From the NCBI RefSeq assembly GCF_025210435.1, contig NZ_JAOART010000108.1, positions 1 to 42,189 of the forward strand: a stretch of 42,189 nt of DNA, in the 5' to 3' direction. The notes beneath the pieces are model-generated. The model saw nothing but the letters and a program-made list of their open reading frames with translations, made no database searches and was not told the DNA's origin. This document shows positions 29,364-42,189 of the stretch, piece after piece. How positions within the stretch are numbered: position 1 is the stretch's first letter; each line of letters opens with the position of its first letter. The stretch comes from Anaeromicrobium sp. (lineage in GTDB: Bacteria; Bacillota; Clostridia; Peptostreptococcales; Thermotaleaceae). The position numbers and the translations under genes were made by a program.

Positions 29364-30488
29364 TTATTTTACAGATTCTTTTAGTTGTCCTATTTCTTCA
29401 CTGCTAAGACCAAAGGCTGAATTAACTTTAATTTCTCCTGAACCAATCTTACCTTCTATCTCTAAAACCTTGTCTTTAATCTCTTTTGGTACTATTTCTT
29501 CATAATACTTATTCTTAGAAAGACCTATAGCTCCTTCTTCTAAACCAATAGATTCTTTTTTACCTGTTGGAATATTCCCTTCAAAGTACATATCTAGGGC
29601 ACGAAGTAATGATTTATCTACTCTTTTTAATGCAGAACTAGCTATTTTATTTGCCTTCTCTGGCTTATCTTCAAATAGTAATGCTTGATCTGAATCTACT
29701 CCAATTGCATAGGTATTCTTTTCATATGCAGCTTCTATCTGTCCAAGACCTGCTCTACCAGCCACATTAAATCCTATATCTACACCCTTAGTATCATATT
29801 GAATTATGGCTAACTCTTTAGCTTTAGCTGCATCACTAAAGGAATCTATATAAGAAATATCTACCTTTATTTCTTCATCAATATATTTAGCTCCCTCAAT
29901 ATATCCTACTAGGAAATCGTTTATTACTGGAATATCCATAGCACCTAAGAAACCAATCTTCTTATCAGGATTAATATTATCAACATCTGTTGCTGTAGTC
30001 ATTTGAGCTGCCAATACACCCGCTAGGAAACCTGCTTCATTTTGCTTATATAAAATTGAATATACATTATCCAAACCTTCAACTTCATCATAACTTACAG
30101 CCGTATCAAACAATATGTAAGTTTTATCTGGATAATTTGGTGCCACTTCTTCTATAGGCTCTTTCATATGGAAAGTTCCCGTAATAATTACATCCCAATC
30201 TTCCTCAGATACGTCTTCTAGTGTGGGGATAAACTTAGTTTTGTCAGATCCCATTTCAATAGTTTTTGTAACTACCTTATCACCATATTTTTCTTTAATT
30301 AGGTCTATTCCTCCCTGGGATGAATCATGAAATGATTTATCACCTAAAGAACCTGATACTAATAAAGCTACCTTTGTTACTTCCTTTGTTTCTTCTCCTC
30401 CATTACTAGCTTCTTCTGGTTTTGAACCACATGCACTTAAAGAGAACATGATACAAAGAACTAGCAATAGGCTTAATAATTTTTTCAT
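29364..30488 (-). CDS. BMP-family nucleoside-binding lipoprotein, 374 aa
   Basis: Extracytoplasmic binding protein of the BmpA/PnrA family (periplasmic-binding-protein-like fold). A lipoprotein signal LCIMFSLSACGSKPEE anchors it to the membrane. Family features include KVALLVSGSLGDKSFHDSSQ near the N-terminus, NKIASSALKRVDKSL and a Gly-rich hinge (GFLGAMDIPVINDFLVGYIE). The ATG at 30488 follows GAGGTGGGG; the frame to 30503 starts inside the ribosome site. Family members bind purine nucleosides such as guanosine and inosine, and the operon context agrees. Confidence 0.92.
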   Translation of the reverse strand: MKKLLSLLLVLCIMFSLSACGSKPEEASNGGEETKEVTKVALLVSGSLGDKSFHDSSQGGIDLIKEKYGDKVVTKTIEMGSDKTKFIPTLEDVSEEDWDVIITGTFHMKEPIEEVAPNYPDKTYILFDTAVSYDEVEGLDNVYSILYKQNEAGFLAGVLAAQMTTATDVDNINPDKKIGFLGAMDIPVINDFLVGYIEGAKYIDEEIKVDISYIDSFSDAAKAKELAIIQYDTKGVDIGFNVAGRAGLGQIEAAYEKNTYAIGVDSDQALLFEDKPEKANKIASSALKRVDKSLLRALDMYFEGNIPTGKKESIGLEEGAIGLSKNKYYEEIVPKEIKDKVLEIEGKIGSGEIKVNSAFGLSSEEIGQLKESVK

Positions 30489-30517
30489 ATAACCCCACCT
30501 CATATTTTTTTATTAAA

Positions 30518-31801
30518 TTAACAACCTAACCAGGATTTTAAATACTCTTCCCTTGATAATCTTGGTATATTGTTATTTTTTATTTCTTTACTTAACTTGC
30601 CATGATCCTTTAATAGATCATATATACTCATGGCTATTATTTTAGCTGGTATTATGTAGGCCATCTCCTCATCCACAATGGAAAAATCAGAACCATGGAC
30701 ATTTCCAGAAAAGCCACTAAATCCAAACTGAATAGTAGGAATTATAGAAGCTAAGTCTCCTATGTCTCCTGATGCCATGGACTTTTGACCATCTATTATA
30801 TTTTTTTCATCTATAAACTTATCCATATTATTTTTAATAACTTTAGATAAATCCTCACATTGTTTAAGGGGCATGTATCCAACCCTATCTTTTATTAAAC
30901 ATTTACCACCTACTGCATAAGCCCCTGCTTCAAAGGCTCTGTTTACCTTGTGATTTGCATCTATTATAGATTGAACATCTCCACCTCTTACATAAGCCTC
31001 AATCTCAACCTTCTCTGGTATTGAATTAACCGTATGACCTCCATTTTTAATTATTCCATGGACCCTAATATTGTGATCATCAATGAAAGTCTCCCTTTGA
31101 GCATTTACTGCTGTTAAACCTATTACAGCAGCATTCAATGCATTTATTCCTAAGTGAGGTGCAGCTCCTGCATGGGCAGCCTTTCCAATGTATGTTATGG
31201 TCTTTTGAATAAATCCATTTAAGGATGAATTAATATCTGTCATTCTACCTTCTACTCCACCCATAGTATGACATGAAATAACTAGATCAATATTATCAAA
31301 TACCCCCTTGGATATCATATCCTGTTTACCAGAACAATATTTTATTTTTCCTTCTTTTATTAAACTTTCCCTATAATCAATATCAGTAAATTCTTCTGCT
31401 GGTGCTCCAATAAAGGTAACAGTTCCCCCTATTTCTTCTAATATTTTAGATTCCTTTAATGCCTTCATAACGGCCAACATAATGGCTATCTGATTTGAAT
31501 GGGCACAAGTATGGGCGGCCCCCAAATCATCACTTGAGTATTTGTGTCCTCCTGTTGGAACTGCATCCATTTCTGCAATAATTCCAATATTTATACCATG
31601 ACCATTTCCTATAGTAGCTTTTAAACCAGTAATAGATATATTTTCTTCTATGGGTATATTCAAATCCTTTAGGTATTTCTGAATGATTTTTGAAGTCTTG
31701 TACTCTTTAAATCCCAGTTCAGGGTTTTTAAATATATGGTTCCCTATATTAATTAATTCCTCAGAATTATTATCTATAATATGGCATAACTTATCTTTAA
31801 T
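30518..31801 (-). CDS. M20-family amidohydrolase, about 427 aa with a probable ATT start
   Basis: A zinc amidohydrolase of the M20D type (p-aminobenzoyl-glutamate hydrolase / PM20D2-like). Visible metal-site motifs are GIIAEMDAVP, AAHTCAHSNQ, FIGAPAEEFTD, ISCHTM and HGSDFS. The first conventional start, TTG at 31663, would remove the first 46 residues. The frame upstream of it is open and encodes an ordinary M20 N-terminus (EELINIGNHIFKNPELGFKE), back to ATT AAA GAT AAG at 31801. AAAGGGGTG lies six bases ahead of that ATT. So either ATT initiates or an original ATG mutated. First gene of the operon, 14 bp ahead of the BMP gene. Its job may be to cleave an N-acyl or amide-linked substrate taken up by the importer. 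Confidence 0.8.
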   Translation of the reverse strand: MKDKLCHIIDNNSEELINIGNHIFKNPELGFKEYKTSKIIQKYLKDLNIPIEENISITGLKATIGNGHGINIGIIAEMDAVPTGGHKYSSDDLGAAHTCAHSNQIAIMLAVMKALKESKILEEIGGTVTFIGAPAEEFTDIDYRESLIKEGKIKYCSGKQDMISKGVFDNIDLVISCHTMGGVEGRMTDINSSLNGFIQKTITYIGKAAHAGAAPHLGINALNAAVIGLTAVNAQRETFIDDHNIRVHGIIKNGGHTVNSIPEKVEIEAYVRGGDVQSIIDANHKVNRAFEAGAYAVGGKCLIKDRVGYMPLKQCEDLSKVIKNNMDKFIDEKNIIDGQKSMASGDIGDLASIIPTIQFGFSGFSGNVHGSDFSIVDEEMAYIIPAKIIAMSIYDLLKDHGKLSKEIKNNNIPRLSREEYLKSWLGC

Positions 31802-31922
31802 TTAAAACACCCCTTTCCATTACTAACGTATTAGTCAATCTTTTTCTGTATTTTTCCTTATATTACTACATATTACTACAATTTTACTTTTAAGTAAATT
31901 CCTGATTTCAACAGAAAGCACA

Positions 31923-31950
31923 AAACGATACCTTACTATGGGTATCGTTT
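31923..31950 (-). terminator. Terminator of the amino acid transporter operon
   Basis: AAACGATACC (31923-31932), an eight-base loop, GGTATCGTTT (31941-31950), followed on the minus strand by TTGTGCTTT. It lies just beyond element A3. Confidence 0.6.
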
Positions 31951-31959
31951 AATTACTAA

Positions 31960-32115
31960 GGCATATGAAAGAAATAAACTAGTCAGTTCTCTGAGAAATT
32001 TGGATTATTTTCAAGGCATGGTAAGCGAGCATATTAAACATATGTAAGCGATTCCATAACGAAGAAAATCATTCAAATAACCAGTGAAATGACTAATTTA
32101 TTTTTTGAATATGCT
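31960..32115 (+). mobile_element. 156-bp MITE-like element, copy A3
   Basis: Same 156-bp length and ends (last base of ATATGCC changed to T). Flanked by TAA at 31957-31959 and TAA at 32116-32118. It lies between the amino acid transporter operon and its terminator. Confidence 0.85.
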
Positions 32116-32209
32116 TAAAATATTCTGTTCTAAATTTTTTTGTGAAACTCCTTCCCAAGGTCACATGAAGCCCACTTTATAATGGGATTATAACTGAAAA
32201 GGAAAATCA

Positions 32210-32947
32210 TTAATAACAGTCAATAGTTTTTTTAAATTTTATTGTTCTTTCATGTTTTGGATTATTAAAAATCTCATGGGGTGAACCTTCTTCAACAATA
32301 TTTCCTCCATCCATAAATATAACTCTATCTGCCACTTCTTTTGCAAATCTCATTTCATGGGTAACAATAATCATAGTAGTATGTTTTTTTGCCAATCCTC
32401 TTATTACATCCAAAACTTCTCCTACAAGCTCCGGGTCTAATGCAGATGTGGGTTCATCAAATAACATAATTTTAGGCCTTACAGCCATGGCTCGAGCAAT
32501 TCCAACCCTTTGTTGCTGTCCTCCTGATAGTTTTGAAGGATAGCTATCTTTTTTATCCCCTAGTCCTACCTGCTCTAATATGTCTAATGCAATCCTTTCT
32601 GCCTTTTTGTAATCCATCTTTTTTACTACAATTAATGGTTCCATAATATTTTGTATGGCTGTTTTATTTTTGAAAAGATTATAGCTTTGAAATACCATGG
32701 AAGTGGCTTTTCTCAATCCATATATTTGTTTTTTTGTTGCATTTTCTATATTCACCTTTAAATCTTCAATTTGAATTTCACCTTTATCAGGAACCTCTAA
32801 ATAATTTATACATCGAAGGAGAGTAGATTTTCCCGTGCCAGAGGGGCCAATCACTGCAACTACTTCACCTTTTTTAATTTCTAAATTAATTCCCTTTAGG
32901 ACCTCTAATTCATTAAAGCTTTTATATAGGTTCTTTATTTTTATCAT
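32210..32947 (-). CDS. Polar amino acid ABC transporter ATP-binding protein, 245 aa
   Basis: Single ABC cassette of the polar amino acid uptake family. Motifs: Walker [15 protein letters not shown] loop FQSYNLF, signature [16 protein letters not shown], Walker [14 protein letters not shown] and the switch His in MIIVTHEM. It drives uptake through the permease encoded 11 bp upstream and the binding protein ahead of it. Substrates of this family include cystine, histidine, glutamine and arginine; the neighbouring MalY/PatB gene suggests a sulfur amino acid, but this is an inference. Confidence 0.95.
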
Positions 32948-32958
32948 ATAGACACATC

Positions 32959-33627
32959 CTAATATGCTTTACTCATCTTAATCTCTAATTTTTTTTGCAA
33001 GTACCCAAAGAACCAGATAAGGGCCCAATATATAATAATCACATCTGTGAAAGCTTCAAAAAACCTATAGGCTGCAGCTCCTTCCATTTGGGCTGTAGCC
33101 ATTATTTCCACTACTCCTAATGTAAAAGCAAGGGAAGAACCCTTTATAATATCAATAAAATTATTGGACAAGGCTGGTATGGCCACCCTTGCAGCTTGTG
33201 GCAAAATAATTCTTCTCATTGCCTGAAGATAGGTCATTCCTATGGATAAAGCCCCTTCCATTTGTCCTTTATCTACAGAGGATATGGCACCTCTAATAGT
33301 TTCAGACATATATGCTGAAGCATTTAAGCTTAGTCCTATAACTGCAGCCGTAAAAGCATCCATTCCCTTTAAGCTTGGAAAAATCTGAACTAATCCAAAA
33401 TATAAGAAAAACAATTGTGCTATAAGTGGTGTTCCTCTAAAAAAGGAAACGTATATCCTTGTAATTGGATACAAAATTTTTATTTTAGTTTGAATAATTA
33501 ACGCAATCATAATTCCAATCATCAACCCAAATACTAAAGATAATACAGACATAAAAAGGGTCACATGGAGATATTTTAGCATTAAGGGAAGTAGCCTCAA
33601 TGCAAACTTAAAACTGAAAACATTCAT
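32959..33627 (-). CDS. Amino acid ABC transporter permease, 222 aa
   Basis: A single-domain permease of the His/Glu/Gln/Arg/opine family with five hydrophobic helices and the EAA loop [20 protein letters not shown], then [20 protein letters not shown]. It forms a homodimeric channel in the membrane. The ribosome site is weak (GAGTGA), consistent with coupling to the binding-protein gene 22 bp upstream. Confidence 0.93.
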
Positions 33628-33649
33628 ATTCTAATCACTCACTAAATTA

Positions 33650-34468
33650 TTACTTTTTTGTGGTATCTAGGCCAAACCACTTTTTAGATAGTTCAGTTAG
33701 TGTTCCGTCCTCATGCATCTCTTTAATCACTTTGCTAATCTCTTCTGACATTTTTTTGCCATCTTCACTTTTTGCGAATGGATATGCATTGATTTCAGCA
33801 CCTATTTCTGTATCTGCTCCCATTAGTTTTACATCTAAATTTCCTTTAGTTATCACTGTTTGAGATTTAACTGCCCCTTGCCAGCATGCATCAAGTCTTT
33901 CTATTTCTACTTCCTTTTCTAAAGGAGTTCCATCATAAAATGACATATCTAAACCAAGTTCATATTCTTCATTTAATGCTCTTAATGTTTTTTCTCCATT
34001 TCCACCTAACCAAGCTCCAACTTTTTTACCTTTCAAATCTTCTATTTTTTCATAAGGGCTATCTTTTTTTACTATAAAATCGTATTTACTATAAGCATAT
34101 GGTTCAGTGAAATTATACTTTTCTTGTCTCTCCTTCGTAATGGACATTTGGTGTGCCACCGTATCAATTTGACCAGCATCTAACAATCCAACTAATCCAC
34201 TAAACTTTGATACTGTAAATTCAATCTTATATCCTGATCTTTTTCCTATTTCATTCCAAAGATCTACTTCAAATCCTTGAAGCTTATCATTTTCTTTAAA
34301 ACACCATGGATTATATGTACCACCTGTTCCAACTCTCATTACTTTTTCAACCTCTTGAGGTGCACTTCCATCAGTTTTTACCTCTTCCTTTTTACCACAT
34401 GCTGCAAATAGCATAGTGCTCATTACTAATACTGCTAACAGTATTCCTAATTTCTTCTTCTTAAACAT
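33650..34468 (-). CDS. Amino acid-binding lipoprotein, 272 aa
   Basis: Extracytoplasmic solute-binding protein (family 3). Signal peptide with lipobox MLFAACGKKEE, then RVGTGGTYNPWCFKENDKLQ and GFEVDLWNEIGKRSGYKI, the family-3 opening. Later KYNFTEPYAYSKYDFIVKKD and LKGKKVGAWLGGNGEKTLR form the ligand cleft and hinge. First gene of the three-gene transporter operon, with ribosome site AAAAGGGGAGG. The 'W' near the cleft and the operon partners recall cystine-type binders, but substrate is unproven. Confidence 0.93.
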   Translation of the reverse strand: MFKKKKLGILLAVLVMSTMLFAACGKKEEVKTDGSAPQEVEKVMRVGTGGTYNPWCFKENDKLQGFEVDLWNEIGKRSGYKIEFTVSKFSGLVGLLDAGQIDTVAHQMSITKERQEKYNFTEPYAYSKYDFIVKKDSPYEKIEDLKGKKVGAWLGGNGEKTLRALNEEYELGLDMSFYDGTPLEKEVEIERLDACWQGAVKSQTVITKGNLDVKLMGADTEIGAEINAYPFAKSEDGKKMSEEISKVIKEMHEDGTLTELSKKWFGLDTTKK

Positions 34469-34801
34469 ATTAATCCTCCCCTTTTATAAAAAAATTATGT
34501 ATAACCACAAAGGTCAAGCTGAGAATATTACCATATGTATATAGATTTCGTAACGCTAAGATTTCTTTATACAGTAACTTGCCTATAAGGGAAACCATTG
34601 AAAATTTTTGGAACCCTGGAACGTCACAACATCCTATGCTACTCCAACATGACTCATGAACCTATATACTAAGATTCACACTTTCGCTTGTGACAAGGAC
34701 TTGGGTGGAAAAGATTTTCAATATATTTTCCTGAAATAGGCACACATAAAGCTGGTTTATAAATACGAAATCTATAATTAATCTTCATCTATGATTTTTT
34801 C
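34469..34801. other. Intergenic stretch filled by repeat copy B1
   Basis: No gene. The 237-bp repeat B1 (34540-34776) fills most of it. The region 34469-34539 is the leader of the amino acid transporter operon; no riboswitch or T-box pattern was recognised. Confidence 0.6.
34540..34776 (+). mobile_element. Repeat family B, copy B1 (237 bp)
   Basis: Ends TATAGATTTCGTA and, inverted, TATAGATTTCGTATTTATAA. Inner parts of the arms share GCCTAT and CATTGAAAAT / ATTTTCAATAT. The centre contains GGAACCCTGGAACGTCACAA and CTTGTGACAAGG, again self-complementary, so the element would fold into a long hairpin. It has no ORF. Copy B2 (42001 onward) matches it in inverted orientation. Confidence 0.7.
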
Positions 34802-35983
34802 CTATATGTGGGTATATACAGCTTTTTTCAACCTACTTAGTCCTTCTTTCAATACAGATCGTGGACAAGCAATATTTATTCTTACAAATCCTTCTCCTTC
34901 TTCTCCATAGGTATATCCTTGATTTAACAATAGCTTTCCTTTACTATGAATAAGATTTTCTAAATCATTTTTATTCAATCCTAGCTCTCTTAAATCTAGC
35001 CATACTAAATATGTAGCTTCAGGTTGGATTACCTTTGCTTTTGGGATATTTTCTTCTATATATTTTGTTAAGAATTTTAAATTTTCTTCTATATATACCA
35101 ATAAATCATCTAACCATTCTTCTCCATGTTCATATGCTGCTTTTAATGCTTCTATTCCAAATACATTTGGCCTTGAAATTCCACAGCTTTCCCTTTCATT
35201 TAAAAACTTATTTCTTATTTTTTCATTTGGGATAATAATGTTTGACATTTGAAGACCTGCAATATTAAAAGTCTTACTTGGGGCTGTACAAACAATAGTA
35301 TTTTGAGCAAACTCCTCACTTATTGAAGGAAAGGGTCTATGCTCATGACCTTTTAATACTAAATCAGCATGAATTTCATCAGATACAAGGATTATATTAT
35401 TTTTAATACAAATATCTCCAAGCCTTTTTAATTCTTCTTCACTCCACACTCTTCCTACTGGGTTATGGGGACTACATAAAAACATAAGTTTTACCCTATC
35501 ATCAATTTTTTTCTCTAAATCATGAAAATCCATTACATATTTTCTTCCATCAAACTTCAAAGGATTAGAAACTACATCACATCCATTATTCTTAACTGCC
35601 TTAAAAAATGGTGGGTATACGGGGGATTGAATGATTACTTTATCATTAGGGTTAGTCAATGCTTTTACTAGGATATTTAATGCCGTAACAACTCCTGGTG
35701 TAAATACAATCCATTCTTTTTTTATATTCCAATTATGACGATGCTTCATCCAATGAATTACTGCATCATAATATGTATCATATCCTCCAGCATATCCAAA
35801 AATACCGTGTTCAGCCCTATTCATAATAGCCTCTAATACACACTTAGGAGCCTTAAAATCCATATCTGCTACCCATAAAGGTAGTATATCTTTATCTACA
35901 ATACCAAATACTTCTTCTAATCCATCCCATTTTATACAATTTGTATTTAAACGATTCCTTACTTCATCAAAATTATATTTCAT
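34802..35983 (-). CDS. MalY/PatB-family PLP-dependent C-S lyase/aminotransferase, 393 aa
   Basis: Fold-type I PLP enzyme. Substrate and cofactor motifs: FTPGVVTALNILVKAL, QSPVYPPFFKAV, CSPHNPVGRVW, VSDEIHADLVL and the PLP-binding Lys in APSKTFNIAGLQMSN. The IHADL and the PSKTFNIAGL patterns are those of MalY/PatB enzymes, most of which cleave cystathionine or cysteine-type C-S bonds. The ATG at 35983 follows AAGGGG; frames up to 36055 lack a ribosome site. It sits upstream of a polar amino acid importer on the same strand, separated by repeat B1. The pair suggests uptake and breakdown of a sulfur amino acid, with the repeat now between them. Confidence 0.9.
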   Translation of the reverse strand: MKYNFDEVRNRLNTNCIKWDGLEEVFGIVDKDILPLWVADMDFKAPKCVLEAIMNRAEHGIFGYAGGYDTYYDAVIHWMKHRHNWNIKKEWIVFTPGVVTALNILVKALTNPNDKVIIQSPVYPPFFKAVKNNGCDVVSNPLKFDGRKYVMDFHDLEKKIDDRVKLMFLCSPHNPVGRVWSEEELKRLGDICIKNNIILVSDEIHADLVLKGHEHRPFPSISEEFAQNTIVCTAPSKTFNIAGLQMSNIIIPNEKIRNKFLNERESCGISRPNVFGIEALKAAYEHGEEWLDDLLVYIEENLKFLTKYIEENIPKAKVIQPEATYLVWLDLRELGLNKNDLENLIHSKGKLLLNQGYTYGEEGEGFVRINIACPRSVLKEGLSRLKKAVYTHI

Positions 35984-35995
35984 AAAGACCCCTTC

Positions 35996-36009
35996 TTTCA
36001 TATGCCTTA
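35996..36009 (-). repeat. Solo end of the 156-bp element in the MalY/PatB leader
   Basis: On the minus strand TAAGGCATATGAAA lies 12 bp upstream of the ATG, with the ribosome site right after it. Another exact 14-base copy is at 5022-5035. Confidence 0.35.
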
Positions 36010-36152
36010 TAATCTTACAAATTTCATTATAATTTTCATTTACATAATAATCCAATAGAAAAATCTTATCTTCTCTATCTTTATTATAGAATGTGCTTAT
36101 ACAACAGGTCAGTTAATCCTATTGTCGTAAGTTTTTCCATTCCAATAAAATA

Positions 36153-36179
36153 AAGGACACGACTTAAATCCGTGTCCTT
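36153..36179 (-). terminator. Terminator of the 98-aa gene
   Basis: AAGGACACG and CGTGTCCTT pair around a nine-base loop. On the minus strand the stem is followed by TATTTTATT. It lies about 55 bp after the stop of the 98-aa gene. Confidence 0.7.
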
Positions 36180-36233
36180 AAAATTTATCATTAATCATAT
36201 GTTTTTTCATAAACAATTTATAAAACAGTTTTC

Positions 36234-36530
36234 TCATGAGTTATATTTTTGACCCTTCTTTTTGAATCTCATGGGTGGCAGTTCTTTTCCTGTGGCAAAA
36301 GTATAATAGGATTTTAAAACTTCAGGATACATTCTTTTATCCCTTGGCGTAAGATCCGTGTCAAAATAAATAGTAGTTCTCAATCTTTGCACTTCCTCTT
36401 CCCTTTTGACCATTTCATCTAACGCAATTTTATACTCAGCTTCTAACTTACCTAAAACCTCCATGATTTTGTCAACTTCATCTCTACCTTTGTCCTTAAT
36501 TAGATAATCTCTATAACCTTCTATCTTCAT
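36234..36530 (-). CDS. Small charged protein of unknown function, 98 aa
   Basis: I do not recognise a family. The first half is a Lys/Glu-rich helix, with a heptad-like stretch (about residues 16-50) that could form a coiled coil. The second half contains TPRDKRMYPEVLKSYYTFAT and a basic end (RFKKKGQKYN). It has no signal peptide or membrane helix, so it is probably cytoplasmic. The start is well supported by AAGGGGGG. It is followed by a terminator and preceded by element A4. Confidence 0.6.
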   Translation of the reverse strand: MKIEGYRDYLIKDKGRDEVDKIMEVLGKLEAEYKIALDEMVKREEEVQRLRTTIYFDTDLTPRDKRMYPEVLKSYYTFATGKELPPMRFKKKGQKYNS

Positions 36531-36669
36531 AAAAATCCCCCCTTACTTATATGATAAATGAATTTACAAAAAATTCAATGAATTTCTTTACAAATATTTT
36601 CCATGTCATCATATAAAAAGGAATCCTATAGGATAATCCCCCCATATTAGATTCATAATTTTTACTTAA

Positions 36670-36825
36670 GGTATATTCAAAAAATAAATTAGTCATTTCA
36701 CTGGTTATTTGGATTATTTTCTTCGTTATGGAGTCGTTCACATATGTTTAATATGCTCACTCACCATGCCTTGAAAATAATCCAAATCCCTCAGAGACTT
36801 GACTAGTTTATTTTTTTCATATGCC
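36670..36825 (-). mobile_element. 156-bp MITE-like element, copy A4 (inverted)
   Basis: Opposite orientation to A1-A3, beginning GGTATATTCAAAAAATAAA on the plus strand and ending TTTCATATGCC. Flanked by TAA at 36667-36669 and TAA at 36826-36828. It lies against the end of the chemoreceptor gene and changes its stop codon from TAA to TAG. Confidence 0.85.
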
Positions 36826-38891
36826 TAAAGTTTAAATCTTTCAATATTTCCTTGCATAGAATCAGAACGTTCTCTTAGTTCCACACTTGTATCTAAAATA
36901 TCTCTTGTGGCTTCACTGACCACCTGAATTGTAGCCGCAATTTCCTCCGTTGCAGCCGATACTTCTTCAGATACTGCCGATACAGACTGTACCTTTTCGA
37001 TAATATTTTCTTTCTTTCCAATCACATCTGATGTGACAACATCAATATGTGTAACCTTTGGAATGACTGCTTCCACTTCACTTATGACATCTTTAAAGGT
37101 TTTAATAGAATCTCTAACAATTCTTTCTTGTTCTATTAACTGTACACTTACATGATCTGCCCTATCTACTGCTGTTTCAGCATCATTTGAAATACTACTA
37201 ATTAATTGGTTTATATTGCTAGAAGATTGTTTTACTTGTTCAGCTAATCCTCTTATTTCATCTGCTACTACTGCAAATCCTTTACCCGCATCCCCCGCTC
37301 TTGCCGCTTCAATGGCTGCATTTAGTGCTAAAAGATTAGTTTGTTCTGATACACTATTAATAACCTCTGTAATTTGACTTACTTGTTTAATATTTTCACT
37401 TAATATTGAAATATTTTCTTTTACACTGGTAGAAGCTTTATTCATAACCTCTATGGATGATATTAATTTTTCTAACTGATCGTTACTTACATTAGCCTTT
37501 GAATTAATTGAATTTGTTTTATTGCTCACTTCTGAAACAAGTTTTGCAACATTATCCATTTCATCACCAAAATTTATTAATTGATTAGTAATCTCTGCTA
37601 AATCTTGGGCTTGATAATTGGTTCCCTGTGCCACATCACCTATGGAACTTGCCACTTCATTGGATGAATGATTAATTTTTTCAGCTACTTCATTTAAACC
37701 CTTTGCATCATAATCCACAAGTGCTGACACCTCTTTTATTTCTAGCATCATATTTTTCTGTCCCTGTACCATATTTTCAAAGCTATCTGTAAGTTTCCCA
37801 AATTCATCTGAACTTTTACTATCTGACCTAATTGTAAAATCGCCTTTTTCAGCATATGCCATTAGATTGATTAAATTATGAATAGGCTTAGTGATAATTT
37901 TACCCGTATAATAGGCACCTATCATAGAAATAATTAACACACCTATTAGTATAAAACTTTGGAAAATTAGCATTTCCCGTGCTTGTGCTAAAATTTCACT
38001 CTTAGGGACTGTGGCCATAATTATAAATCCATTATCCATTTTTGAAAAACTAGTTATTTTATCTATTCCTTCAAATTCTGTTTCTTGAATACCTAAAAGT
38101 TTCTCATCTATAATAGCTTCTAGTTTTGTAAATGCATTACCCCCTAGATCTTTTAGGTTAATCTTCTCCTTTATTGTAGGATGTACAATAATATCCTTAT
38201 TTGAATTTAATAAGGTAGTATATCCACTAGTATATAATTTCATAGATAAAACATTCTCTTCAATAAATGTAAAATCTATATCCATACCCACAACACCAAT
38301 TAACTTATTTCCCTTATAAATGGGTGAAGAATATGTAATCACATTAGCCTTTAAATTTTCATCATAGTAAGGATTACTCCATATGCCTTGTCCTCCTTTA
38401 ATAGGTCTAAAGTACCAGGCTGCATTTTCATTTGAAGGAGTTAAATCTTCAAGGGGTGTAGCATCTCCCACATTTTCATAATCACCCCTGTCGTTTATAA
38501 GATATACTGATTGATAAAGCTTATCTCCATGAATTAATTCTGGATTAAATGCAAAGTAAGCATCAATATTTCCCTTTGCACTTCTTGCACCATTATAAAC
38601 TAGGGGATGGATACTTTTAATAAAAGTGTCCATATAATTAGGATCACTTAATTTACTCTCATCATATATTCCTGAAATGCTATTTCCTAAATTATCTACT
38701 GAACCTTCAAGGGAATTCATCATTTTATCAAATTCATTTGCTTTATTTTGTACAGTCAATAACATTTTATCATTTGCATCATTGCTAATAATCTCACTAC
38801 ATTTTACATAGCTCACAGCACTTATTCCCACAGACACTAGTAATGTACATAAAATAATAGCCAGGGCTATTTTGTAAGATATTCTTCTCAT
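36825..38891 (-). CDS. Methyl-accepting chemotaxis protein with dCache sensor, 688 aa
   Basis: A full-length chemoreceptor. An N-terminal helix (about 8-28), then an extracytoplasmic double-Cache domain of about 265 residues. Its distal part reads [20 protein letters not shown], then [20 protein letters not shown], and [17 protein letters not shown], the standard dCache_1 layout. A second helix (about 310-330), a HAMP domain and the signalling hairpin follow, with [20 protein letters not shown] and [17 protein letters not shown]. The Arg that usually stands just before the WY in amino acid-binding dCache domains is Ala here, so the ligand class is unclear. The start lies 26 bp after the stop of the decarboxylase gene at 38917, so the two are probably cotranscribed. 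The stop codon TAG is partly supplied by element A4. Confidence 0.93.
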
Positions 38892-38916
38892 ACTTGTAAC
38901 CTCCTCTCCTCTCCTT

Positions 38917-41238
38917 TTATTTTGCCATTAAGTCATCTATAAACTCATCAATCACATCTGGTGAAACATGGGGCATAATATCAAGATGAGATACGGAGTG
39001 GTTATTTTCATCTATTACCTCAGGCATTCCCCATTTTTCTCTAATCTTAGCCCTAGGAGAAGGTTTTAAAATGATAATATTTGAACTTTCATTCCTAAAT
39101 GGCCTTATATTGGTATCTTTTTCTACTTCCTTCAGCCTTTGTTCCGCATATCTACTAACTTCCATAGTATTTTGTGCAAACTCGCCTAATCCCTTTTCTC
39201 CTAACTCACATATTCTTTTCCAAATAACAACAGACATGTATGAATTCTTAGATCCTGTAATAATCGTTCCATATTTATGAAAATAATCTTGAACATCTTC
39301 ATCCGTATATACATTTTTGCTATTTTCAATAATAGATGTAAGATTTGATATTATTTCATTCATAATAATATCTATATTGCTTTTTCTAAAAATTCCTATA
39401 CCACATGGAAATGGAGCTCCTAAAAACTTATGTCCACTTACAGCTATGGAGTCTATAGGCATATAATTTTCATCTTCTGGTGATAGTTTAAAAGGTATTA
39501 TTTCTTCATATGTACTTAAAAAAGGTAAAATATGTCCGTGTAATGCTCCATCACAATGGATATATACTTGTTCTCTAGGCATTTCACATTCCCTTAAAAC
39601 CTCTCCAACTTTTTTTAACTTATCAATAGAACCTTTCATAGTTGTTCCTAAATTAATATTTATGATAGCTCCTAAGTTTGGATTTAACCTTTTATTTAGG
39701 ATGATTTTTTCTTTTAATGAAGTATAATCCATTTCTCCCCATATGGGATCATGTTCAACTTTTTCTGTTTTTATATCAAATATGGCTGCTCCCTTTGATA
39801 GACTATAGTGAGTCTCTCCAGTTAAAAACAATACCCCATTCTCTTTGAATTTTCTCTTTGCCGTAAGTAATCCTATATAATTTCCTTCTGTTCCACCAGT
39901 TGTTACATATCCTGTGAATTTTTCCTGTACCTGTTCGTGGAAAAATATATTTTTATAAAAACTAATAATTTCATTATCAAATTTATCCGTATAAGAAGTA
40001 TCATATGTAGGATTTTTTATTGTATCTAAATTTAAGTCTACTGAAAAAATTCCATTACATGTATTGTACATAATACTCTCTTTTATTAACATTTCAAACA
40101 AATTATTTAATTGACTATCATCCCAAAGTTGGTTAATGGGATAACCCATTGACATGGGTTTTAGAATTTTTAATTTTTCCATAAAGGTTTTGTACCCATG
40201 ATAATCCTTTTCTAATAATTGATTTTTAGCAAATACTTCACTTAATTCTTCTTCCCTCAGATTCTTTAACTCACCTATTTCATCTAAACTAAATCTATTG
40301 AAAAAATAATCATCAAAGAAAAGAAAGTTTCCATTTCTAGAACCAACAACAGTGCTGTCTTCTGCACCTATATACTGAACAGTAGCATCATTAAAATATT
40401 TTTGCACTTCCACACTAGTTATTAATAGTCCTGTTAAGTAAGATGACTTTGCACAAGTACAACTAATAGATACAGAGTCAATATATACATGAGATTCATT
40501 TTTCTCTAATAGATTCATCCCTCCTGAAAGGACCTTTAGATCATTAATAGAATGAACCATTAAATGAATATATGAATTTGTAAAATTTTTCCTTACTTCC
40601 CTAATAATATTTTTTATTTTATTCATCTCTTCTTTCGTATACTGGTTTGGTAATGAAATTGTGAAGAATATACCTTTCTTCTTTAAATCTTCATTTTTAA
40701 AATGGCCTAAAATTTCTTTTCCTTCATCTTCCACAATTATTTGTTTCTCTATATTTAACAAAACTGCTGATTCATACATACTCAATGGAATTTTTCCATA
40801 ACCCATTAAAAGGGTTTCTAATTTTTCTTTTTTAAATTTTGTCTTTGCTGATTTAAGAGCAAAAATTGATGCTTCCTTATGACCTAATGTAAAATATCCA
40901 AAAGTATTTGTATCACTTCCTCCATAAGGATTTAGATGTAAATATTTGAATATTTTATTTAATAATTTCAATTCAATTTCCCTTGTTTCCAATCCATATT
41001 TACATTGGCCATCTGGATTTCCCACATTGTTAATATGATAGTTAAATAATTTCATTAACACTTCCTTATCCCTATTAGGTAACATATTTTCATCTATATG
41101 ATTAAAATAATCCTCATAGTTTTTCAATAGCTGTGAGATAAACTCATTATACGTTTGAAATTTTTCTCCATTAAACTCATATTTTTCAGCGATTATTTCT
41201 GGTTCTACAAGACAAAGACAATTATTTGAATCTTTCAC
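38917..41238 (-). CDS. Histidine-decarboxylase-like PLP enzyme with a second, degenerate PLP domain, 773 aa
   Basis: The C-terminal half (about 385-773) matches PLP-type histidine decarboxylases (group II). It carries [11 protein letters not shown], His477 ([10 protein letters not shown]), IGTT-like [12 protein letters not shown], Asp563 ([11 protein letters not shown]), His603 and the PLP Lys604 in [18 protein letters not shown], and ITGSKN. The N-terminal half (about 60-330) repeats the same order in a decayed form: [20 protein letters not shown], then [38 protein letters not shown] and [14 protein letters not shown]. In that half the Asp is Met227, the Lys site is Cys262 and the catalytic His is missing. 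The pattern implies a tandem duplication in which the first half became structural or regulatory. GTG start after GGGAGG. It lies upstream of, and close to, the chemoreceptor gene. Confidence 0.85.
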
Positions 41239-41389
41239 CCTATTTCCTCCCTATTTTTATGTGATTAAAGCATTTTAATATTATAGTAATCTTTAATCAT
41301 TACATAACATTACATTATTTAACTAATTTTACAATATTAACCTACAATTTTTTGTCATTTCTTGCGATTTATTTTATTTTTAAATGATT

Positions 41390-41400
41390 AGGCATATGAT
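41390..41400 (+). repeat. Solo end of the 156-bp element beyond aroK
   Basis: AGGCATATGAT preceded by TTA, a left-end match that breaks off after ten bases. A second end in the same orientation is at 41490-41510. Confidence 0.25.
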
Positions 41401-41433
41401 TTACCAGTAAAATATATTTTTTTCTATATAAAA

Positions 41434-41460
41434 AATCACATATATACAAAATATGTGATT
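41434..41460 (-). terminator. Terminator of aroK
   Basis: AATCACATAT and ATATGTGATT pair around a seven-base loop. On the minus strand the stem is followed by TTTTTTATA. Confidence 0.75.
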
Positions 41461-41480
41461 ATCTGTAATTTCTTGATTAT

Positions 41481-41978
41481 TTAAGCTTTAGGCATATTCA
41501 AAAAATTTATTATATTCTTTATAATCTCTTCTAAACTTCTATCATTCATAACTTCCATATGACAATATTTTTTATACAAATCATATCTTTCTTCATACAA
41601 CTTGAACAAATTTTCCTTCTTACTCAAAAGAGGCCTACTTTCCGTATCTATATCCTCTAATATATTATCTATAGGCCTATTTATAAAAATAATTACTCCA
41701 TTTCTCTTAATTATCTTCACATTATATGGATTCTTTATTATTCCTCCACCTGTGGATATTACTCCATTAGTTTTTTCACTAACAATCTCAGTGGCCTTCG
41801 TCTCCATTTCCCTAAAATAACTTTCTCCTCTTTTGAATATCTCAGGAATAGTTTTTCCTGCTATCTTTTCTATCTCTTCATCTATATCAATGAATACTCT
41901 ATTCAAATTGTGGGCAACTTTTTTTCCTATGGTAGTTTTTCCACAACCAGGCATACCTATTAATACAATATTTTTCAT
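41481..41978 (-). CDS. aroK: Shikimate kinase, 165 aa
   Basis: Phosphorylates shikimate at the 3-OH with ATP in the aromatic amino acid pathway (cytoplasm). Walker A is IGMPGCGKTTIG (7-18). Shikimate-binding Asp33 is in FIDIDEEIE, Arg56 is in SYFREMETKA, and the GGG motif is STGGGII (75-81). The lid Arg is in ESRPLLSKKE. The length is normal for the family (about 165-175). The C-terminal residues NMPKA are encoded by a sequence matching the end of the 156-bp element (plus-strand 41490-41510, AGGCATATTCAAAAAATTTA). The gene stands apart from other aro genes, with its own terminator; repeat B2 lies just upstream. Confidence 0.95.
   Translation of the reverse strand: MKNIVLIGMPGCGKTTIGKKVAHNLNRVFIDIDEEIEKIAGKTIPEIFKRGESYFREMETKATEIVSEKTNGVISTGGGIIKNPYNVKIIKRNGVIIFINRPIDNILEDIDTESRPLLSKKENLFKLYEERYDLYKKYCHMEVMNDRSLEEIIKNIINFLNMPKA
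41490..41510 (+). repeat. Element-end sequence encoding the aroK C-terminus
   Basis: AGGCATATTCAAAAAATTTA matches the right-end complement of the 156-bp family for its first 16 bases. It codes for residues INFLNMP of aroK on the minus strand. Confidence 0.4.
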
Positions 41979-42000
41979 AATTTATCATCCCTTTGTGTTC

Positions 42001-42189
42001 TATAGATTTATCATTTTCAAACTTGAGTTATGTGAGCCTACTTCAGGAAAATATATTGAAAATTTTTTCCACCCAAGTCCTTGTCACAAGCGAAAGTGTG
42101 AATCTTCGTATATAGGTTCATGTGTCATGTTGGAGTAGCATAGGATGTTGTGACGTTCCAGGGTTCCAAAGATTTTCAATATATTTTCC
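42001..42189 (+). mobile_element. Repeat family B, copy B2, cut by the window end
   Basis: Starts TATAGATTTATCATTTTCAA and matches B1 in inverted orientation through CACCCAAGTCCTTGTCACAA and CATAGGATGTTGTGACG. About 45 bp of the element are expected beyond the window. It lies between aroK and whatever gene precedes it. Confidence 0.7.

Follow-up and report, generated by a model that had tools for sequence, protein, structure and literature searches.

A tandem group II PLP decarboxylase of Anaeromicrobium sp. with complementary losses in its two halves, encoded next to a dCache chemoreceptor

In the P-protein of glycine decarboxylase a single chain carries two pyridoxal 5'-phosphate (PLP) folds, of which one holds no cofactor. 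Eukaryotic serine palmitoyltransferase belongs to the alpha-oxoamine synthases, a PLP family other than the group II decarboxylases treated here. Its subunits LCB1 and LCB2 are homologous, but only one partner has the PLP lysine; LCB1 lacks it and is believed to contribute catalytic residues to what is one shared site (passages of PMC3794620). The plant serine and alanine decarboxylases AtSerDC and CsAlaDC (8jg7, 8jij, 8jik) have a zinc finger and form homodimers from two polypeptides, each crystallised with 418-421 residues. Their active site is built from two subunits (structural passages of PMC11407765). In CsAlaDC, Lys309, His308, His196, Asp277, Ala279, Thr247, Gly169 and Thr170 come from one subunit (in cis), and the adjacent subunit supplies in trans Tyr336 of the catalytic loop, believed to be the proton donor, and Ser347, which binds the phosphate (PMC11407765). 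Passages on LbTDC, with Ser440 from the other subunit (PMC4904194), and on human AADC, with Tyr332 in trans (PMC10382914, PMC9121088), agree with this arrangement. We have analysed a stretch of 42,189 nucleotides from Anaeromicrobium sp. (contig NZ_JAOART010000108.1, below called the window), in which one gene (38917..41238, minus strand) encodes a tandem group II PLP decarboxylase of 773 amino acids (aa). It has the PLP-binding set of AtSerDC and CsAlaDC, but differs from them in that a single chain contains one full complement of site residues. We consider it probable (roughly 0.7) that the protein forms a single-chain pseudo-heterodimer with one composite active site, to which the N half donates catalytic residues.

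The open reading frame is uninterrupted and starts with GTG; all features of this gene and of the receptor gene next to it lie on the minus strand. The N half (residues 1-344, 40207..41238), delimited by profile match and a low-confidence model, is a large domain of the decarboxylase fold that lacks the greater part of the PLP-binding set as well as the small C-terminal domain; a linker (residues 317-344) is counted in it. The C half (residues 345-773 plus stop, 38917..40206) has a complete PLP side and the small domain. An initial annotation, made from the sequence without database searches, took both halves for decarboxylases of the histidine decarboxylase (HDC) type, and profile searches agree, also for the N half alone. 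NCBIfam model NF002748 (histidine decarboxylase) matches the isolated N half with E 8.8e-16 (profile positions 33-275 of 382) and the isolated C half with E 6.7e-74 (248.9 bits). The whole protein scores 293.6 bits, under the curated cut-off of 305, and is therefore not called a histidine decarboxylase by that model. Pfam model PF00282 (Pyridoxal_deC) gives 65.5 bits for the whole chain, with the best stretch at 459-706 and a cut-off of 27; in the Pfam search it matched the C half only and not the N half.

Full-length homologues, which the initial annotation had suggested looking for, were found in two further genomes, G009 and G010; together with the G009 protein and LutB2 of G010, the window protein makes up the tandem set (n = 3) used below. 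An hhalign comparison of the three aligned N halves with an eight-row alignment, which combines C halves with single-domain relatives, gives a probability of 97.8 and E 1.1e-12, and BLASTP of the window N half with the window C half gives E 3e-5. On our own profile of 14 single-domain relatives the three N halves score 63-78 bits (window 66.5), and the best of 1000 shuffles of the window N half 4.2 bits. The Photobacterium phosphoreum HDC structure 7erv matches the N half alone (residues 31-304, E 2.4e-4). The closest solved relatives are CsAlaDC and AtSerDC, both by sequence and, for the C half, by the full-chain model. Bacterial PLP HDCs (NF002748; 7eru, 7erv) resemble the window protein in that their profile matches both of its halves, but the latter is about twice as long, and among the plasmid genes listed with an HDC annotation, identity to it is 23-31%, one partial record apart. 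On these matches, the protein consists of two PLP group II decarboxylase copies, both of the histidine/serine/alanine branch. The C half belongs to this family, as the profile cut-off is passed and the PLP residue set is present; the N half is homologous to it, without the catalytic lysine and most of the PLP pocket.

Structure prediction gave poor models for the N half. Modelled alone it reaches a predicted local distance difference test score (pLDDT) of 52.8; the full-chain model reaches 58.9, with a predicted template modelling score (pTM) of 0.49 and most of the N half below pLDDT 70. Among the 50 structural matches listed for the low-confidence N-half model, 49 are fold-type-I PLP enzymes by recognised names (9pep was not recognised), P-protein chains included, which is the fold that the initial annotation expected.

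CsAlaDC residues were placed by hand on the sequence alignment (chain index + 60). All eight cis residues are present in the C halves of all three tandem proteins. In the window protein the PLP phosphate loop is GGTEGN (448-453, 39880..39897) by alignment; the equivalent of His477 (39808..39810) stacks on PLP in relatives, that of Asp563 (39550..39552) binds the PLP ring nitrogen, and His603-Lys604 (39427..39432) contains the Schiff-base lysine. The alignment bears out the initial annotation in all four of these residues, His477, Asp563, His603 and Lys604.

The N half has lost most of this set. The equivalents of Gly169, Thr170, Ala279, His308 and Lys309 are gone from all three tandem proteins (in the window they are His120, Lys121, Val236, Thr261 and a deletion), and those of His196, Thr247 and Asp277 from two of the three in the profile alignment, with one alignment-dependent exception each (a His in LutB2, a Thr in G009, Asp233 in the window protein). 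Beyond the sites named in the initial annotation, the GGT, His and GTT equivalents are lost as well, with the reservation that single tandem proteins still show His or Thr there in the profile alignment. That annotation had placed Cys262 at the lysine site and a methionine at the aspartate site. Loss of the lysine holds for 3/3 N halves in the profile alignment; the placement of Cys262 depends on the alignment, because SCTCAKSS is shorter by one residue, and in the profile alignment the Lys column is a deletion and Thr261 stands under the His, with Lys264 nearby. The aspartate site is likewise alignment dependent: it is Met227 if no gap is allowed, yet Asp233, invariant in the three tandem proteins, if there is a six-residue insertion.

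The residues that a subunit lends to its partner are found in the N half. Its trans motif (residues 286-304, 40327..40383) contains Tyr289 and Ser300, both kept in 3/3 N halves and 11 residues apart, the spacing of Tyr336 and Ser347 in CsAlaDC, from which the trans role is taken (passages of PMC11407765). All 7 family-conserved columns of the motif are kept and all 19 residues are invariant in the tandem proteins. A second segment, INNVGNP...E (residues 57-91, 40966..41070), keeps 4 of 5 family-conserved columns, with 33 of 35 residues invariant. We infer that it, too, is lent by the partner, by analogy with Asp86 of EcGadB and from an alignment in which the GAD-like relative L028 sets an IDKDEYP-like stretch against the INNxGxP segment; the alignments of two other GAD-like relatives begin after it. 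Asp86 of EcGadB comes from the neighbouring subunit (passages of PMC12961736).

In the C half the trans side is degenerate. Of its trans motif (residues 652-666, 39241..39285), 3/7 family-conserved columns are kept: Tyr652, Gly662 and Ser663 are present, Asp, Thr and the last Gly are lost, and Arg is replaced by Lys in 2/3 proteins. The catalytic loop of the C half itself has, by alignment, an insertion of about 20 residues (residues 619-651, 39286..39384; 17/33 invariant), and the counterpart of NNxGDP (372-441; 40/70 invariant) is interrupted; the GYP (7/7) and SGHK (26/27) segments are nearly invariant. It is conceivable that the C halves of two chains pair as an ordinary homodimer with two normal sites, using Tyr652 and Ser663, and that the N half is an attached scaffold. 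We regard this as unlikely in view of the loop insertion, the loss of 4/7 conserved trans-motif columns and the interrupted and variable NNxGDP counterpart; a mere scaffold, moreover, would not need 19/19 trans-motif residues kept.

The division of labour can be counted. A column was taken as family-conserved if 80% or more of 13 single-domain relatives share one residue there (the divergent L022 had been set aside beforehand), and as kept if at least two of the three tandem proteins have that residue; unaligned columns, such as the GYP region of two N halves, count as not kept. The N half keeps 11/12 columns of the trans segments and 8/32 of the cis segments (Fisher P 9e-5), the C half 4/12 and 29/32 (P 3e-4); of 14 other columns they keep 2 and 7. 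With the trans motif documented for CsAlaDC only (7 columns; N half 7, C half 3), P is 4e-4 and 0.012, respectively. The losses of the two halves are thus complementary: the N half kept the lent parts and the C half the PLP side. Log-odds scores run the same way, with 31-33 bits (N) and 11-16 bits (C) for the Tyr-Ser motif against 10-13 and 49 bits for the lysine segment. They are less clear for the INNxGxP segment, with 25-27 bits for the N halves (window 26.8) and 21.0 (window), 8.5 and 9.8 bits for the C halves. Within the N half, 52/54 residues of the trans segments are invariant among the three tandem proteins against 152/233 elsewhere (P 6e-7).

Both halves are under purifying selection: the ratio of nonsynonymous to synonymous substitution rates (dN/dS) is 0.22 for the N half in three pairs, 0.16-0.21 for the C half and 0.21-0.26 for the neighbouring receptor gene. 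These values bear on the notion that the protein is a decaying fusion whose N half has no function, which could be read from what that half lacks: the lysine, the small domain and the greater part of the PLP set. The N-half value, close to that of the C half, speaks strongly against decay, as does a frame kept open in three genomes of three genera, so that this notion is hardly credible.

The N half could also be a regulatory domain, in which a small molecule bound in the dead pocket would control the C half. Allostery in PLP enzymes has been the subject of a review (PMC9081730), and the stretch around the former lysine site is well conserved (252-285, 29/34 invariant). Conservation is highest in the partner-side stretches, however, and elsewhere the lost pocket varies (132-223, 51/92; 224-251, 14/28), which makes this reading of the N half quite improbable. 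The initial annotation spoke of a single-chain pseudo-dimer with an allosteric or scaffold half. The pseudo-dimer with a non-catalytic first half is borne out; the second part of the wording is not, since the retained trans residues fit a donor, though the half may still have an allosteric role.

In the reading that we favour, two group II decarboxylase subunits were fused and then split the work. The homodimer site of the family combines the PLP side of one subunit with the loop tyrosine, the serine and, presumably, the N-terminal segment of the other. In the fused chain the C half would bring the PLP and Schiff-base side and the N half the partner side, giving one working site per chain, and the second site, made of the PLP side of the N half and the loop of the C half, would be dead. 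Decarboxylation would then follow the mechanism of the family. That the N half kept the trans Tyr, the Ser and INNxGxP, and lost the PLP side and the small domain, fits completion of the site of the C half rather than mere scaffolding.

Several observations weigh against this proposal. The passages on the closest relatives (PMC11407765) do not state that INNxGxP is lent by the partner, and on this segment the window C half scores near its N half and keeps Asn392 of the counterpart. The retention of Tyr652 and Ser663 makes a C:C site between two chains possible. The segment that replaces SGHK..PxPCG in the N half (residues 259-270, 40429..40464), SCTCxKSSYLTG, hardly varies among the three tandem proteins (Cys260, Cys262, Lys264, Ser265, Ser266), and a pure donor role leaves its conservation, and that of the dead-site stretch 252-285 as a whole, unexplained. 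The N-half models are poor, so that any arrangement of the halves is conjectural. Finally, the segment limits were drawn with knowledge of the alignment, and the tandem proteins compared are closely related to one another.

The logic of a dead half that keeps the trans residues (11/12 columns) and a live half that keeps the cis residues (29/32) is like that of LCB1/LCB2, but the latter consists of two polypeptides. The likeness to the P-protein, drawn in the initial annotation, holds in that two PLP folds share one chain and one is dead, in the window protein by sequence. It does not extend to family membership: the P-protein is absent from the whole-chain Pfam matches at E up to 10, and with the GcvPA model, which has a cut-off of 364 bits, the C half gave only a weak match of 11.6 bits (E 0.093). 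The window protein is a member of neither the serine palmitoyltransferase nor the P-protein family; these are the nearest ways of working.

The tandem arrangement is known in three genomes so far. The genome sets searched were samples of larger groups. In a set of 60 related genomes, full-length relatives (77-78% identity) occur in three, the own genome of the window included, and a fourth match, L004, is a single-domain decarboxylase. This 542-aa relative (L004, 571-2199) has insertions and adjoins a gene that by eye resembles phosphatidylserine decarboxylase; another single-domain relative (L098, 1501-2757), in another genome of the phylum, has a start that looks like a signal peptide by eye and may be exported. 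A profile of the N half matched five of 394 genomes of the order, the three known ones and two weak matches that were dropped (E 4e-4 and 8e-4; 79 and 58 residues), and among 398 genomes of the phylum the own genome and one weak match, also dropped (E 1.2e-4). The HDC profile matched 74 of 391 genomes of the class, own included, with no other listed frame above 623 aa (frames of 614 and 623 aa were left unopened), and 13 of 398 genomes of the phylum at E <= 1e-15, own included, with no other listed frame above 515 aa.

Outside these genomes, plasmids gave 140 records at E <= 0.01; among the 60 listed only one covers 80% of the query, a single 386-aa frame of Vibrio campbellii that both halves match at the same place. 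Two phage records matched, with the C half only. A first scan of IMG/VR found no loci and a second found ten, nine with frames of 365-421 aa and one (L080) with a 530-aa frame that was left unopened; a search of genome contigs with narrow patterns found one locus. At least several IMG/VR contigs (L071-L079, 9-178 kb) have single-domain HDC-like genes, and in several of them DSTVSGSRNG and YYGLDSR segments are close to the N half. Among the papers listed from the openly licensed literature library searched, no title or start of an abstract describes a tandem or single-chain decarboxylase with a dead half; PMC11308512 gave no passage on subunits. A tree was tried for distinguishing internal duplication from capture of the N half; the three N halves sit on a branch of length 3.84, with a long-branch warning, and the tree does not settle the origin.

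In all three tandem loci the next gene, 15-25 bp on, encodes a dCache chemoreceptor. In the window it is 25 bp downstream of the decarboxylase (36825..38891) and, by its frame, its domain matches and the shared block, encodes a dCache_1/HAMP/MCP protein of 688 aa. When the window from 30001 to 42189 is compared with the 19.5 kb that surround the pair in each of the other genomes, DNA similarity covers only the two genes, from 36826 to 41250 for LutB2 and from 36831 to 41218 for the other. Position 41250, the upstream limit of the block shared with LutB2, also bounds the ribosome-binding site (GGAGG, 41246..41250, read by eye). As the shared DNA is limited to two genes and the flanks differ among the genomes, the pair behaves as a two-gene cassette; transfer and repeated loss both fit.

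In the genus mate G001, with RF3 98% identical, other genes stand beside the shikimate kinase gene; this genome has no match to the decarboxylase, and its match to the receptor sensor is only 24% identical. A case for recent transfer from low synonymous divergence (dS) was dropped, with dS at 0.48-0.74 and no matched housekeeping dS, as was one from divergence alone, since RF3 identity to G010 (80%) is about that of the decarboxylase (78%); rpoB gave no match in the assembly of the window. Promoter-like sites are at chance level (35 found, 34.1 expected), a terminator-like site follows the receptor gene (36782-36802; four such sites in all against 1.3 expected), and Rfam gave no match. A little downstream, outside the shared block, lies a gene for a PatB-family C-S lyase, another PLP enzyme (34802-36055; TIGR04350, 508.8 bits).

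The sensor part of the receptor is 71-74% identical in the other two tandem genomes; among the 60 genomes, the match with the next highest score has 35% identity, and some short, weak matches have up to 37%. Of solved structures, the receptor matches best the uracil and short-chain-fatty-acid sensor A4 (9hvj, E 2.5e-32), a dCache_1UR protein. Four pocket positions are common to A4 and the amine sensor McpX (passages of PMC12415202), and the receptor resembles A4 and the dCache_1AM sensors (McpX, PctD, PacA) in them: aligned to A4, Tyr130, Trp159, Tyr175 and Asp204 are present, 4/4, in all three receptors. Unlike in A4, the uracil-specific Arg116 and Asn178 are replaced, by Ala114 and Asp177; Thr145 and Asn180 are kept. 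The arginine of the amino-acid motif (as given in passages of PMC10104139) is absent. The motif of amine sensors further includes an Arg/Asp pair above the pocket, R103 and D133 in PctD. The pocket thus appears to be of the amine/uracil type. An amine-like ligand is our best guess, and the ligand may also be uracil-like; as 3/4 acetate-site residues are present, a carboxylate in the second pocket is possible.

The substrate of the enzyme is most likely an amino acid, which would be decarboxylated to an amine. In the C half, GYP (365-367, 40138..40146), placed by alignment, starts the substrate-specificity motif and is followed by Ile368. The position after GYP sets specificity, with Tyr in SerDC and Phe in AlaDC; AtSerDC with Ile there has marginal alanine activity and less than 5% of the serine activity. 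The enzyme is encoded directly upstream of the chemoreceptor, whose pocket is of an amine type, and together the two may link the making of an amine to swimming. A fuller version, which we put forward tentatively and hold to be rather doubtful as a whole, is that the PLP-less half has specialised in lending the catalytic Tyr and the phosphate-binding Ser in trans, and that the gene travels in a mobile two-gene cassette whose chemoreceptor is tuned to the amine of the enzyme, as a portable module to make an amine and sense it.

If the donor role is true, this natural single-chain version would separate, on one protein, the residues that must be lent from those that must be owned, and would permit mutants with a change in a single site, which are out of reach in a homodimer. 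Glycine decarboxylase and serine palmitoyltransferase would then have an independent counterpart in another PLP family that went the same way. The close pairing with one chemoreceptor would offer a testable link between metabolite production and taxis.
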